DNA of 64,000 nucleotides from Acetobacter malorum (GTDB taxonomy: Bacteria > Pseudomonadota > Alphaproteobacteria > Acetobacterales > Acetobacteraceae). The position numbers were made by a program, and so were the translations under genes. How positions within the stretch are numbered: position 1 is the stretch's first letter; every line of letters begins with the position of its first letter. The stretch lies in assembly GCF_002153605.1 (NCBI RefSeq), contig NZ_JOPG01000005.1, positions 186,001 through 250,000 of the forward strand, given 5' to 3'. Below, piece by piece: positions 14,518 through 39,839 of the stretch. A model generated the notes under the pieces. That model made no database searches. It was not told the DNA's origin and saw nothing but the letters and a program-made list of their open reading frames with translations.

Positions 14518-15051
14518 ATGTCACGTGTAGGCAAATATCCCGTTGATGTTCCCGCCGGGGTGACTGTCTCGATTGCAGACGGTGTGTTCAAGGCGAAAGG
14601 GAAGCTGGGCGAACTCGCGTTGCCGCTTTCCTCTCACATTGAGGCGGAAATTTCAGACGGGAAAGTCGCGGTGCGTCCGGTTGGGACAGCAGCGCAGGCT
14701 CGTATGATGTGGGGTACAACTCGCGCACTGATTGCAACAGCAATCAAAGGCGTGTCTGAAGGGTTCTCAAAGGCTCTTGAGATTAACGGTACTGGTTACC
14801 GTGCTGCAGTGCAGGGTTCTAATCTTGTGATGAACCTGGGCTATTCTCACGACGTGGTTTATCCGATCCCGCAGGGTATCAAGATCTCCACGCCGCGTCC
14901 GACAGCTATTCTTGTCGAAGGTATCGATAAGCAGCGCGTTGGTCAGGTTGCTCTTGATATTCGCAGTTTTCGTAAGCCTGAGCCCTATAAAGGCAAAGGT
15001 GTGCGTTATGAGACGGAAACCATTCGTCGCAAGGAAGGCAAGAAGAAATAA
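14518..15051 (+). CDS. rplF: 50S ribosomal protein L6
   Basis: A 177-residue L6, located near the factor-binding site of the large subunit. [15 protein letters not shown] at the start and [20 protein letters not shown] at the end identify it. The last base of its TAA is the A of the rplR ATG. Confidence 0.99.
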
Positions 15052-15413
15052 TGAGCACTCAGCAGGAACTGCGGAACCGTCGGCGTGCTCGCCTGCGTTT
15101 TCAGCTCCGTCGCAAGGCTGGTGGTCGTCCGCGTCTGTCGGTCTTCCGGTCTGGCAAGAACATCTATGCACAGGTCATTGACGATGTGCGTGGCTGCACC
15201 CTTGCTGCCGCTTCCAGCCTGGATAAAGAACTTCGTCCGTCTCTGAAGAGCGGTGCCAACAAGGACAGCGCTGGCGCTGTTGGTAAACTTGTTGCGCAGC
15301 GTGCTGTGGCTGCAGGCGTCTCCCAGGTTGTTTTCGACAGGGGGTCGTATCTTTATCATGGGCGCGTGAAAGCCCTGGCGGAGGCTGCCCGTGAGGGCGG
15401 TCTCTCCTTCTGA
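15051..15413 (+). CDS. rplR: 50S ribosomal protein L18
   Basis: A 120-residue L18, a 5S rRNA binder. [20 protein letters not shown] and the end [14 protein letters not shown] are typical. It overlaps the rplF stop codon by one base (TAATG), a coupling arrangement. Confidence 0.99.
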
Positions 15414-15428
15414 GGAAAGGATCACGTA

Positions 15429-16007
15429 ATGGCTCGTGAACCAAGAGAAGGCGGTCGAGGCGGCCGTGATCGTGAACGCGAAGGCGATGAACTGGTTGAT
15501 AAGCTGGTAACCATCAACCGCGTTGCTAAGGTTGTTAAGGGTGGTCGGCGCTTTGCCTTCGCTGCTCTGGTTGTCGTTGGTGACCAGAAAGGCCGCGTTG
15601 GGTATGGTGCTGGTAAGGCCCGTGAAGTACCGGAAGCCATCCGTAAGGCAACGGAACGTGCCAAACGTGGCATGATCCGCGTACCGATGAAGGAAGGTCG
15701 TACGCTGCATCACGATGTGGCTGGTCACTTCGGTGCTGGTAAAGTGATCCTGCGCTCTGCTGAAGCAGGGACGGGGATCATCGCTGGCGGCCCGATGCGC
15801 GCTGTCTTCGAAAGCCTGGGCATCAATGATGTGGTTGCTAAGTCCCTCGGGACCCGTAACCCGCATAACATGGTGAAGGCGACGTTCTCTGCGCTGGAAC
15901 GGTGTGCAAGCCCGCGTTCTGTCGCCAACCGTCGCGGTAAGAAGGTTGCTGAAATCTTCGGTAAGCGCGACCAGGCCACTTCGGCTGTGGAGGCTGCAGA
16001 TGTCTGA
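15429..16007 (+). CDS. rpsE: 30S ribosomal protein S5
   Basis: A 192-residue S5, which takes part in translational accuracy and lines the mRNA entry. The N-terminus is charged and glycine/arginine-rich ([20 protein letters not shown]), followed by the classic [20 protein letters not shown] and [20 protein letters not shown]. It overlaps rpmD by eight bases. Confidence 0.99.
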
Positions 16008-16185
16008 GGCGAAAACCTTTAAAGTCACCCAGATTGCGTCCGGTAACGGTCGCAAGCCTGGTCAGAAAGAGACCCTTGTGGGTCTCGGCCTGAACAAGAT
16101 CGGTCGTGAGCGGGTGTTGGAAGACACCCCCTCAACCCGCGGTATGGTCCGTAAGGTGGCCCACCTTGTGAAGGTGGAGGATTGA
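16000..16185 (+). CDS. rpmD: 50S ribosomal protein L30
   Basis: A 61-residue L30. The ATG at 16000 ([19 protein letters not shown]) overlaps the end of rpsE by eight bases; an upstream in-frame start would run deep into rpsE. The core [20 protein letters not shown] and the end [14 protein letters not shown] are typical. Confidence 0.97.
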
Positions 16186-36149: not shown

Positions 36150-37544
36150 TCAGGACTTGTTGCCGCTCATGCAGGCACCTGCCTGAGGCGAGAGGCAGGC
36201 CGCAGCGGGCACGGCCAGCATGGAGATGGTCCCGGTCACCAGAAAGGCGGTTGAGAAATCATGCAGGGTTGGGGTCGCGTGCTGGCGCAGAATGTGCGTG
36301 AGCGTGAGGGTGCCCGCAGCCGTGCAGATGCCCACCGAGAGCATGAGCTGTTGCAGGGTGGAATAAAGGCTGGTGGCCGCACTCATGCGCTGCTTGGAAA
36401 TATCCGCATAGGCAATCGTATTATAAGCTGAAAACTGCGTGGCCTGCGCCATGCCAGCCACAAACAGGATGAGAGAGAGCGTCCACAGCGGCTGGCCCTT
36501 CTGGAACCCGGCAATCAGGGCGAACAGAATGGCGGCGGAAAACCCGTTGGCCATCAGTACCCGTCTAAAGCCCCAGCGAGCCAGTGTGGCAGGCACAAAG
36601 GGGCGCATGGCAATGGCGCCGAGTGGTGCAATAAAGGTAATAGCTCCGCTCTGAGCGGCGTTGAGCCCCGCGCCAATTTGCAGAAACGTGGGGAACAGGA
36701 ACGGGAGCGAACCGACCGCGACGCGGGAGGCGGCACCTCCCACCACGGAAATGGCGAAAGTAGGAACCCGGAACAGACTGAAATCCAGCAACGGGGCATC
36801 TGTGCGGCCGGCATGCAGGCCGTAAAGCCCCATCAGGCTGCTGCCCCCCACCAGCATACCCAGAACAAGCATCCCGCCACCTTCACCGTGGCTGAAGAGT
36901 TCCGCTGCGATGGAGAGAATGGCGAGCCCGCCGCCCGCCAGAATCATGCCGCGCAGGTCAAACGGCGGCGGGTTGGGGGTGCGGACATTCGGAATGAAAC
37001 GGCGGGTCAGCAGTAACCCCACAAGGCCAACCGGAATATTGAGATAGAAATTCCAGCGCCATGACAGGTAGGTGGTGATGAACCCGCCGACCACAGGCCC
37101 CATCAGCGGACCGAGCGTTGCCGGGAGCATCATCCACGTCATGGTGCGGACCAGATCCTCCCGCGCCGTGCCGCGCAGCACCACCAGACGGCCCACCGGC
37201 ACCATCAGCGCGCCCCCGATGCCCTGCAAAGTACGCATACAAGCCAGAAAAATCAGACTGGTAGCTGACGCACACAGCACCGAGCACGTCACGAACATGA
37301 TGATGGCCCCGGTCAGCACCGTGCGACTGCCCAGCCTGTCCGCCAGCGCGCCGGAAGCGGGGATAAATATGGCCAGACCTATGATGTAGGAGGTCAGCGC
37401 TACGGATGTGGAGACCGTATCCACGTTCAGACTATGGGCAATGGAAGGGAGCGCCGTGGCCAGAATGGTGCCGTCCAGTTGCTCCATGAAGAACATGGAG
37501 GCGACGATAAGGGCGATCAGATGGGGGCGGGTGATAGACGGCAT
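36150..37544 (-). CDS. DHA2-family MFS drug exporter
   Basis: A 464-residue, roughly 14-segment transporter. Motif A is GALADRLGSR, and the antiporter motif C is in LGPLMGPVVGGFITTYLSWRW, the pattern of proton-driven exporters of the EmrB/QacA group. The start MPSITRPHLIALIVASMFFMEQLDGTILATALP gives the usual D1 motif. It is transcribed in the same direction as the RND operon, 267 bases upstream of it, and probably forms its own unit. Substrate unknown. Confidence 0.85.
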   Translation of the reverse strand: MPSITRPHLIALIVASMFFMEQLDGTILATALPSIAHSLNVDTVSTSVALTSYIIGLAIFIPASGALADRLGSRTVLTGAIIMFVTCSVLCASATSLIFLACMRTLQGIGGALMVPVGRLVVLRGTAREDLVRTMTWMMLPATLGPLMGPVVGGFITTYLSWRWNFYLNIPVGLVGLLLTRRFIPNVRTPNPPPFDLRGMILAGGGLAILSIAAELFSHGEGGGMLVLGMLVGGSSLMGLYGLHAGRTDAPLLDFSLFRVPTFAISVVGGAASRVAVGSLPFLFPTFLQIGAGLNAAQSGAITFIAPLGAIAMRPFVPATLARWGFRRVLMANGFSAAILFALIAGFQKGQPLWTLSLILFVAGMAQATQFSAYNTIAYADISKQRMSAATSLYSTLQQLMLSVGICTAAGTLTLTHILRQHATPTLHDFSTAFLVTGTISMLAVPAAACLSPQAGACMSGNKS

Positions 37545-37656: not shown

Positions 37657-37962
37657 ATGGCTGACGATAAGCTCAAAAACATCGGCACGAAACTCGAAGG
37701 CGCAGCTGATGAAGTCAAAGGCCGCGTGAAAGACGCAGCCGGTGGTCTGACGGGTGATCTGGGTCTGCAGGCCGAAGGTAAGGTTGATCAGTTCTCCGGC
37801 ATGGCGCAGCAGGAATTTGCTGATCTGTATGAAGAAGGCGAGGGTGTGGTGGAAAAAGCCGTGACCTTTGTGCGGGATAAGCCCTTGCTTTCACTGGGTA
37901 TTGTGTCCTTCGTGGGGGTCCTGCTCGGCTGGCTGGTGTTCCCGCGTTCCAAGCGCTCCTGA
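37657..37962 (+). CDS. CsbD-like protein with a C-terminal membrane anchor
   Basis: A 101-residue protein. Residues 1-45 (DKLKNIGTKLEGAADEVKGRVKDAAGGLTGD...AEGKVDQ) follow the CsbD pattern of general stress proteins. From about residue 60 a DUF883-like tail with a single membrane helix (DKPLLSLGIVSFVGVLLGWLVFPR) is joined on. This CsbD plus anchor layout puts the stress domain at the inner membrane. The ribosome-binding site AAGGAGAAAG precedes the ATG. It is divergent from the DHA2 exporter; an inverted repeat CGGTCT/AGACCG (about 37568-37590) lies between them. Confidence 0.7.
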   Translation: MADDKLKNIGTKLEGAADEVKGRVKDAAGGLTGDLGLQAEGKVDQFSGMAQQEFADLYEEGEGVVEKAVTFVRDKPLLSLGIVSFVGVLLGWLVFPRSKRS

Positions 37963-37968
37963 TAAAAC

Positions 37969-38003
37969 ATTTTCACCGGGACTCTTGCGCGTTCCGGTGA
38001 AAA
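37969..38003 (+). terminator. Hairpin after the CsbD-like gene
   Basis: TTTCACCGG (37971-37979) pairs perfectly with CCGGTGAAA (37994-38002). An A/T stretch brackets the stem, so it may act as the terminator of the CsbD-like gene. It also overlaps the first of the five GANTC sites. Confidence 0.55.
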
Positions 38004-38062
38004 GTGATTCTCCTCTTTCTACGGAGTCGCAATTGGTGCGACTCGGTTATTTTAACCGAGTC
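37980..38062. promoter_or_regulatory. Cluster of five GANTC sites ahead of rnhB-ccrM
   Basis: GANTC, the sequence methylated by CcrM, occurs five times in 83 bases: 37980 (GACTC), 38006 (GATTC), 38024 (GAGTC), 38040 (GACTC) and 38058 (GAGTC). Chance would give about one per 256 bases. In Caulobacter crescentus the ccrM promoter carries GANTC sites whose methylation lowers its activity, so the same feedback is plausible here. A clear -35/-10 pair was not identified. Confidence 0.7.
38024..38062 (+). other. Two overlapping, mutually exclusive hairpins in the rnhB leader
   Basis: GAGTCGCA (38024-38031) pairs with TGCGACTC (38037-38044); GACTCGGTTA (38040-38049) pairs with TAACCGAGTC (38053-38062) around TTT. 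The two share 38040-38044, so only one can form in RNA. No T run follows. As DNA, the same arms place three GANTC sites in a dyad array; as RNA they could act as a switch 27 bases ahead of the rnhB start. Confidence 0.6.
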
Positions 38063-38088
38063 CTGCCAAATGAGTAGAAAGAGGGGCC

Positions 38089-38718
38089 ATGCCGGATTTT
38101 ACACGGGAGCAGCAACACGGCGGACGCGTCGCCGGTGTTGATGAAGTCGGGCGTGGCCCGCTGGCTGGTCCCGTGGTGGCTGCCGCTGTGGTGTTTGGCG
38201 CTGGTGTGCCGGACGACCTCGCAGCCGTTATTGATGATTCCAAAAAACTGAAGCCTGCTGTGCGTGAGGCCATTGCGGCCCGCCTGCCTGATGTGCCCGG
38301 CATTGAAATTGGCCTGGGCGCTGCCTCTGCAACCGAAATTGATACGCTGAATATCCATCACGCTGCCCATCTGGCCATGCAGCGCGCCGTCGCGCGTCTG
38401 CCGCATGTGCCGGACCATGTGCTGGTGGATGGAAACAAGCTGCCGTCTTTCGGGTGCAGTGCAGAAGCCATTGTGGGTGGTGACAGGCTCAGTCTTTCCA
38501 TCGCCGCAGCATCCATCATGGCCAAAGTGGTGCGGGACCGCATCATGGCCCGTCTGGACGTGCGCTGGCCTGCTTATGGGTGGGAGCGCAATGCCGGATA
38601 CGGCACCGTGGTCCACCGTGAGGCTCTGAGCAGCGTGGGGGTTACCCCGCATCATCGTAAAACATTCGGCACTGTGCGCCGGCAAATTGAACATCTTGCT
38701 ATGGAGGGCCGGGCATGA
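38089..38718 (+). CDS. rnhB: Ribonuclease HII
   Basis: A 209-residue RNase HII, which cuts RNA or single ribonucleotides embedded in DNA. The catalytic Asp18-Glu19 ([14 protein letters not shown]) and Asp114 (VDGNKLP) are present. [12 protein letters not shown] and the end region are typical. A GAGGGG ribosome-binding site precedes the ATG. It overlaps ccrM by ATGA, the pairing found in many alphaproteobacteria. Confidence 0.96.
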
Positions 38719-39839
38719 GCGGCGCAAAATCAGTCACTATGGAACTTCCTCTTGATCAGATTCTGCGTGGCGAATGCGTGGAAACCATGCGCAGCCTGCC
38801 GTCTGGTTCAGTCGACTGCGTGTTTGCTGACCCGCCGTATAACCTCCAGCTGCGCGGTGAACTGCGTCGCCCGGATGATTCCCTCGTGGACGGCGTGGAT
38901 GATGACTGGGACAAGTTTTCTGATCTGGCTGAGTATGACCGTTTTACCCGTGCATGGCTGACGGAAGCGCGCCGCGTTCTGCACAAGGACGGCACCATCT
39001 GGGTGATTGGCTCCTACCACAACATCTTCCGCATTGGCGCGATCCTGCAGGATCTGGGGTTCTGGATTCTGAATGACATCGTATGGCGCAAGTCCAACCC
39101 GATGCCCAACTTCCGTGGCCGTCGCTTTACCAATGCGCACGAGACGATGATCTGGGCCGCCCGTAGCGAAGACAGCCGCTATCGCTTCAACTATCAGGCC
39201 ATGAAGGCCCTGAATGATGATGTGCAGATGCGCTCCGACTGGTATCTGCCGCTGTGCACGGGCAATGAGCGCCTGCGCAACGAGCATGGCCTGAAACTGC
39301 ACCCGACGCAGAAGCCGGAAAGCCTGCTGCATCGCGTTCTGCTGGCCTCTACCTCTGTTGATGATGTTGTGCTGGACCCCTTTACCGGCACGGGCACCAC
39401 GCCGGCTATGGCGAAGCGTCTGCGTCGTCGGTTTATCGGGATTGAGCGTCACCCGGATTATGTGGAAGCCGCTCTGGGCCGTGTGGCGCGGGAAGAACCG
39501 CTGTCCGATGATGCCGTGATGACGACGCAGGACAAGCGTGAAGCTCCGCGTGTGCCGTTTGGGAGTCTGGTAGAGCAGGGGCTTCTGTCTGCCGGTGTGG
39601 TTCTGGCCGATAAAAAACAGCGCGTGCAGGCCACGGTTTCTCCGGACGGTACGCTGGTGAGTGGCGATAAGCGCGGCTCCATTCACAAAATGGGCGCGAT
39701 GCTGACCAATGCGCCGTCCTGCAATGGCTGGACCTTCTGGCACTTTGAGCGTGACGGCGTCTGGTTGCCGCTGGATGTACTGCGGCAGGAAAGTCTGGTG
39801 CAGTCTGGCCGTGGGGCCAGCAACGTAATTTCTGTCTGA
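38715..39839 (+). CDS. ccrM: Cell-cycle-regulated GANTC adenine methyltransferase CcrM
   Basis: A 374-residue beta-class N6-adenine methyltransferase. The catalytic DPPY is at 39-42 and the SAM-binding DPFTGTGTT at about 221-229, with the target-recognition region between them. The stretch [20 protein letters not shown], then [16 protein letters not shown], is nearly identical in character to Caulobacter CcrM, and the CcrM-specific C-terminal domain ([24 protein letters not shown] in substance) is complete. No restriction endonuclease is nearby, as expected for this solitary enzyme. An internal ATG at 38739 is a shorter alternative start. Confidence 0.95.

Follow-up and report, generated by a model that had tools for sequence, protein, structure and literature searches.

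Why does the short stretch ahead of rnhB and ccrM in Acetobacter malorum carry five copies of GANTC, the sequence methylated by the product of ccrM? The sequence-only reading had placed these sites directly in front of the two genes and had proposed a dense switch by which methylation regulates the methyltransferase itself. In this study, the window, meaning the whole 64,000-nucleotide stretch of DNA that was analysed, was compared with related loci in the genus, the family and the class. From these comparisons the segment is likely to control the rnhB-ccrM operon: sites methylated by CcrM would set operon transcription, and their most likely reader would be GcrA.

The rnhB-ccrM locus and its GANTC cluster

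Domain matches confirmed the gene names rnhB and ccrM (Table 1). The start of ccrM overlaps the stop of rnhB (ATGA, 38715-38718), and ccrM is therefore very probably translated from the rnhB message. By sequence, the protein is a close homologue of Caulobacter CcrM, as it matched structure 6pbd over residues 13-359 (E 4.6e-148); the best NCBIfam model was that of CcrM (NF050803, 634.5 bits, below its cut-off of 830). The first GANTC site lies 17 bases behind the end of the CsbD-like gene. All five sites were found where they had been reported, and their position directly ahead of rnhB-ccrM was confirmed. The reported clustering also holds, but the count expected in 83 bases is 0.13 at the window's own rate and not 0.3 (Poisson P 2.4e-7 for one given place). 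GANTC is strongly avoided in the window (positions 1-64000), which contains 97 sites where dinucleotide shuffles have 232 on average. From start to start the five sites span 78 bases, the tightest five-site span in the window, and the next one that has no sites in common with it takes 307 bases. When the 97 sites were placed at random, a five-site span as tight arose anywhere in 8 of 10,000 trials.

Table 1. Features of the rnhB-ccrM locus, in window coordinates.
Feature	Position	Strand	Remarks
CsbD-like gene, directly upstream	37657..37962	+	PF05532, E 2.1e-15
Inverted repeat TTTTCACCGG...CCGGTGAAAA around GACTCTTGCGC	37970..38003	+	Overlaps the putative promoter
TTCACC, candidate -35 box	37972..37977	+	TTGACC in loci L008-L014; TTTACC in L015, L016, L019, L020
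GANTC site 1 (GACTC), within block GANTCTTGC	37980..37984	+	
GANTC site 2 (GATTC), only in part of the genus	38006..38010	+	
CCTCTTTCTAC, can pair with the rnhB ribosome-binding region	38012..38022	+	Weak support across relatives
GANTC site 3 (GAGTC), opens the conserved three-site leader array	38024..38028	+	
Hairpin pairing sites 4 and 5	38033..38069	+	Some non-core pairs change on both sides among relatives
GANTC site 4 (GACTC), left hairpin arm	38040..38044	+	CGACTCG, which is YGAKTCG on the other strand
GANTC site 5 (GAGTC), right hairpin arm	38058..38062	+	
GTAGAAAGAGG, likely rnhB ribosome-binding region, partner of 38012-38022	38074..38084	+	Role inferred from position
rnhB, ribonuclease HII, first operon gene	38089..38718	+	PF01351, NF000595
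ccrM, GANTC adenine methyltransferase	38715..39839	+	PF01555 and PF18755 (RAMA)

Conservation in the genus and the family

A search of 61 genomes gave CcrM-like matches in 55 and yielded 30 loci, all from the same genus and one of them the window. In the family search, 277 of 299 genomes had a ccrM match at E 1e-130, and 80 further stretches were added (the 60 best new ones, 14 hand-picked from the family search and six genus members). Of the 110 loci thus obtained, the counts use the 104 in which an rnhB could be recognised ahead of ccrM and leave out the other six. The genus, taken as Acetobacter in the wide sense, is represented by 40 genomes and the family outside it by 64 loci; because the loci are related, the counts are not independent events.

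Sites 3 to 5 form an array, GANTC-N10/11-GANTC-N13-GANTC, which is present in 36 of the 40 genus genomes, and the block GANTCTTGC with site 37980 occurs at 37 of the 40 loci, 35 of them with C and 2 with G at the N position. Site 38006, searched as TGATTCTCC, was found at 9 of 40. Four of the five sites are conserved and 38006 is local. Comparison with close relatives, which the sequence-only reading had put forward as a check, thus did not refute it; as for a conserved number and spacing, this applies to four sites within the genus and neither to site 38006 nor to the array spacing beyond the genus, where it was seen at 0 of 64 loci, though GANTC sites remain. The four genus genomes without the array (L024, L025, L148 and L176) count against methylation control of the operon. 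L148 (G012) and L176 (G016) are small genomes of 1.7 and 1.5 Mb, in which ccrM and gcrA are kept and the gaps between rnhB and ccrM are wide (85 and 123, respectively); L176 has two GANTC before ccrM instead of a leader array.

In the 160 bases before rnhB, the 104 Acetobacteraceae loci hold 405 GANTC against 86.2 expected from first-order shuffles, while a control stretch inside rnhB holds 137 against 163.4. At least three sites are present in 83 of 104 leaders, and outside the genus in 47 of 64. GANTC ranks first among 24 like pentamers in the 103 distinct leaders, with 400 occurrences, the next two reaching 83. Outside the genus, successive sites are separated by 10 or 11 bp in 43 of 96 cases and by 9-12 in 57 of 96, N is mostly T (T 75, C 37, A 32, G 14), and leaders read, for example, GAGTC-N5-GATTC-N6-GATTC or GATTC-N4-GATTC-N6-GATTC. 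As letters and spacings vary around sites that are kept, a role of GANTC itself is suggested. The GANTC array is real and conserved, and on these comparisons it is probably functional.

Two of the genomes searched deviate in ccrM itself. G267 has two equal-scoring, divergent copies on one contig (G267:C262:11822-12892 and 14979-16049), possibly an assembly artefact, and at G030:C167:60810-61900 ccrM appears as two overlapping pieces, apparently in different frames, through a frameshift or a sequence error.

GANTC sites before ccrM across the class

The class search matched 109 of 153 genomes at E 1e-110, and one genome per family was taken from 80 of the 87 other alphaproteobacterial families with a match (L192-L271), leaving aside the six families with the weakest matches and one locus too near a contig end. 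The 200 bases before ccrM hold 248 GANTC in these 80 families against 65.6 expected, with at least one in 73 of 80, and GANTC is again first of 24 pentamers (248 against 81). In 48 of the 80 families a TTGAC box is followed by GANTC at a distance of 0 to 6 bases (TTGAC-N0-6-GANTC; 0.42 expected), with the majority consensus TTGACGnnGnnnCnCGGnTGACTCAnnnTnC, and two GANTC lie 10-11 bp apart in 25 of 80 (0.6 expected). Counted over the usable named loci, the element is found at 51 of 78, including those of Novosphingobium, Paracoccus, Ruegeria and Magnetovibrio; the window contains it twice, both strands considered.

The placement relative to rnhB differs between the Acetobacteraceae and the other families. 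Among the 79 usable loci of the latter, 64 are headed by rnhB, and these carry 27 GANTC before rnhB against 36.9 expected; where rnhB and ccrM are separated by 61-599 bases (52 loci), 144 GANTC lie within the gap against 31.2. In the Acetobacteraceae, 388 GANTC fall within 160 bases upstream of rnhB and 5 upstream of ccrM at the 90 loci with a gap of at most 60 bases, and the 14 loci with a wider gap have 17 and 9, respectively. A closed gap alone does not move the sites: in other families, 17 loci whose genes lie at most 60 bases apart keep them before ccrM (at least one within 200 bases in 16 of 17; 7 GANTC before rnhB). As the sites stay before ccrM in spite of the short gap, the promoter of those 17 loci may lie within rnhB.

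The candidate promoter and GcrA as a possible reader

Judged by position, a promoter may occupy about 37972-38005; it would contain site 37980, and the array of three sites would follow directly behind it. Site 37980 begins two bases past the candidate box TTCACC; its counterpart in L008-L014 of the genus is TTGACCGGGACTC, a short form carried ahead of rnhB where the window reads TTCACCGGGACTC. The leader thus shares with the class element a GANTC close behind a -35-like box, in L008-L014 as that very short form, but the box of the window is TTCACC and its additional leader array lies outside the class element. The -35 and -10 boxes are putative, as their assignment by eye was ambiguous between TTNACC and TTGCGC. 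A simple sigma-70 scan found no promoter at the leader, which counts against control of transcription by these sites; for Gluconobacter oxydans, start-site work gave only a lax promoter consensus, according to the part of the source consulted (PMC5756330). The inverted repeat at 37970-38003 does not resemble a usual terminator, since a T run precedes and an A run follows it, the opposite of a terminator; its arms around GACTCTTGCGC vary, as judged by eye, yet still match in several relatives. L026, L027, L030 and L172-L174 carry an extra pair, GACTC-N5-GAGTC, upstream of the array behind TTTAC, about 150-165 bases ahead of rnhB.

The regulator GcrA is encoded in the genome of the window (PF07750, E 3.4e-29). 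The domain was found in all 37 genus genomes searched and in 49 of 61 overall, matches that are not fully specific, since the control also matched in one archaeon. Activation by GcrA was linked to YGAKTCK or YGAKTCG in the excerpt used of one study (PMC7987155), and CGACTC, the other-strand form, is described in sections of another as the methylation-activated motif of ftsZ and mipZ (PMC3708114). Among sites 12-90 bases before rnhB, with identical leaders counted once, 78 of 133 match YGAKTCG in the genus and 96 of 141 in the other members of the family; for comparison, the motif fits 4 of the 92 window sites outside the leader and 22 of 137 sites within rnhB (Fisher P, ignoring relatedness, 7e-19 for genus leaders versus window and 3e-19 for the other family leaders versus rnhB). 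In the window itself only one of the five sites (38040) matches YGAKTCG and two match YGAKTCK (38006 in addition), which counts against GcrA reading these sites.

Leader RNA structure and other explanations

A different view is that the sites owe their presence mainly to the structure of the leader RNA, which would control translation or mRNA stability through the hairpin at 38033-38069 and an outer stem covering the rnhB ribosome-binding region; GANTC would then be a by-product of the palindromic stem sequence. The leader of the window (38005-38095) does fold strongly, at -40.7 kcal/mol with a z of -5.46, and 0 of 200 shuffles were as good. The hairpin was followed in an alignment of 33 distinct arrays, whose rows were picked by the GANTC array pattern, so that the GA and TC letters are constant by that choice; constancy is also seen, here not by construction, at the N position of sites 4 and 5 and at three flanking letters, C32, G38 and C50. 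The hairpin is paired in 90.1% of cells, compared with 28-41% when slid. Two-sided changes were seen in 40 cells, where shuffles gave 16.7 (sd 3.9), and the covariation score was 0.239, where they gave 0.136; each of these two values was reached by 0 of 500 shuffles. Two further measures out of the five are unremarkable, namely the pairs with change on both sides (6 against 4.4; 61 of 500) and the pair types (16 against 14.8; 150 of 500), and related sequences can beat shuffles without any structure. Six core pairs never vary while the outer ones do, GA and TC being required in the choice of rows, and RNAalifold predicted the core with a small covariation term (-0.74). Covariation thus gives partial support to a hairpin on two sites in the genus, which offers another possible reason to keep these two and in this respect counts against the methylation reading. 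The hairpin can be an RNA structure or a palindrome that arose from copying errors, which can also make perfect palindromes. The outer stem is perfect in the window but was rejected as hardly better than its slid controls across relatives (73.1% paired against 50-64%; 31 changes on both sides, with 33 in one slid version). Beyond the genus, the sites persist with altered spacing and N letters, and this hairpin was not seen there by eye; moreover, site 37980 lies outside it. Between positions 37000 and 39000, the Rfam models gave three matches, all below the gathering score, and no known RNA family. We consider it improbable that the sites are mainly explained in this way.

A further alternative, an attenuation switch in which site 4 pairs with either site 3 or site 5 and thereby decides whether transcription reads on, appears very improbable. 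Both pairings are present in the window, the hairpin of sites 3 and 4 was flagged as terminator-like, and six of its cells changed on both sides, a number reached by 11 of 500 shuffles; its tail, however, is GGTTATTTTA and not a U run, and four terminator-like sites in 2.5 kb compare with 2.4 expected. The other measures of this pairing do not stand out from the 500 shuffles, which equalled them in 38 cases for paired cells, 53 for the score, 481 for pairs and 500 for types, and its middle pair is broken in 5 of 33 rows. With no U run and little support for the pairing, an intrinsic terminator or attenuator is a weak candidate. A last group of explanations comprises chance, base composition and a dispersed repeat; in its favour, passages of PMC3973325 report a general, more than 1.5-fold enrichment of GANTC in the intergenic DNA of the class. 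Chance and composition are nevertheless rejected on the basis of random placement within the window and of the shuffle and pentamer controls, and are contradicted by conservation, and a dispersed repeat by the single copy of the leader in its genome, where the other matches are its own palindrome and two 14-base matches; an origin of this kind is the least credible of all.

Discussion

The proposal of a self-regulatory methylation element agrees with the conservation of the sites, the pentamer control and the class-wide placement of GANTC before ccrM, and CcrM probably helps to control its own production, as far as can be judged from sequence. We propose that methylation by CcrM is the reason why the GANTC sites have been kept. 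The enzyme would thus mark the DNA from which its own gene is expressed, and transcription of the operon would depend on whether this mark is full, half or absent, which changes with the passage of the replication fork. The most likely reader would be GcrA, a sigma-70 cofactor that prefers methylated GANTC. Position suggests two parts, the promoter with its site 37980 and the array behind it. Activation by GcrA is as possible as repression, with a slight leaning towards an activating role of 37980 and a damping one of the array behind it. The hairpin on two sites in the genus might add a second layer that acts on the mRNA.

Several GANTC sites lie close to the inferred start of the ccrM transcription unit, a feature of the Caulobacter type. 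The work of Stephens and colleagues from 1995 reportedly located the two Caulobacter sites 3' to the promoter, a placement resembling that of the array of three sites in the present leader. In both cases GANTC occurs at the promoter of the methyltransferase's own gene and is read as self-regulation (PMC10073500 and PMC3973325, in the parts consulted). The sequence-only reading had regarded repression of Caulobacter ccrM by methylation as established; this is too strong, as the passages of PMC3973325 used here have "most probably" for ccrM itself. It was right that there are more sites than in Caulobacter, five against the two given in the consulted text of PMC10073500, and that they lie in a leader common to rnhB, here the head of an overlapping operon. 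The hairpin on two of the sites, which the sequence-only reading had overlooked, is a further difference. So is the lack of a full CtrA site in the four leaders checked, with neither TTAA-N6-8-TTAA nor TTAACCAT in the 200 bases before rnhB (L001, L008, L015 and L033). In Sinorhizobium, CtrA drives ccrM, as stated in the part of PMC4433202 consulted, and this was counted against the present interpretation.

The locus also resembles the Caulobacter promoters regulated by GcrA and CcrM (ctrA P1, mipZ, ftsZ and podJ), in which a methylatable GANTC lies near the promoter with motifs of the CGACTC and YGAKTCK type (portions of PMC3708114 and PMC7987155), and gcrA is present here; it differs from them in that the target is the operon of ccrM itself and in that the array runs on towards rnhB. 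In Caulobacter, a GANTC between -35 and -10 goes with timed activation, and only 11 of 96 cell-cycle start sites with a GANTC at most 50 bp upstream have more than one (PMC4287350, from an excerpt). A 2010 survey of GANTC before cell-cycle genes states, in its consulted part, that methylation control could not be derived, and no array, spacing or link to a -35 box is described there (PMC2877005). In the literature searched, which included few subscription journals and no supplements, such arrays are not described. The idea that ccrM controls itself is known, whereas the architecture and its class-wide distribution appear to be new.

It is tempting, albeit rather doubtful, to go further and to assume a class-wide ccrM promoter with its own methylation sites. 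In the Acetobacteraceae, with rnhB and ccrM overlapping or almost adjoining, these sites would have moved to the head of rnhB-ccrM, and in the genus some of their letters would do double duty. If this were true, the same GANTC would be a DNA methylation mark and the core of an mRNA hairpin, and one element would feed CcrM activity back on both transcription and translation. The probability of this reading is lowered slightly by the 17 short-gap loci of other families, whose sites remain ahead of ccrM, and by the two hairpin measures that are unremarkable.

In the parts of the literature consulted, self-control of CcrM by methylation is discussed for Caulobacter. The leader described here and the class-wide pattern suggest that methylation feedback on ccrM is general in the Alphaproteobacteria, the gene order changing while the sites remain near the likely promoter. 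In Acetobacter, the array is compact and testable, and its letters may serve a DNA mark and an RNA structure alike.
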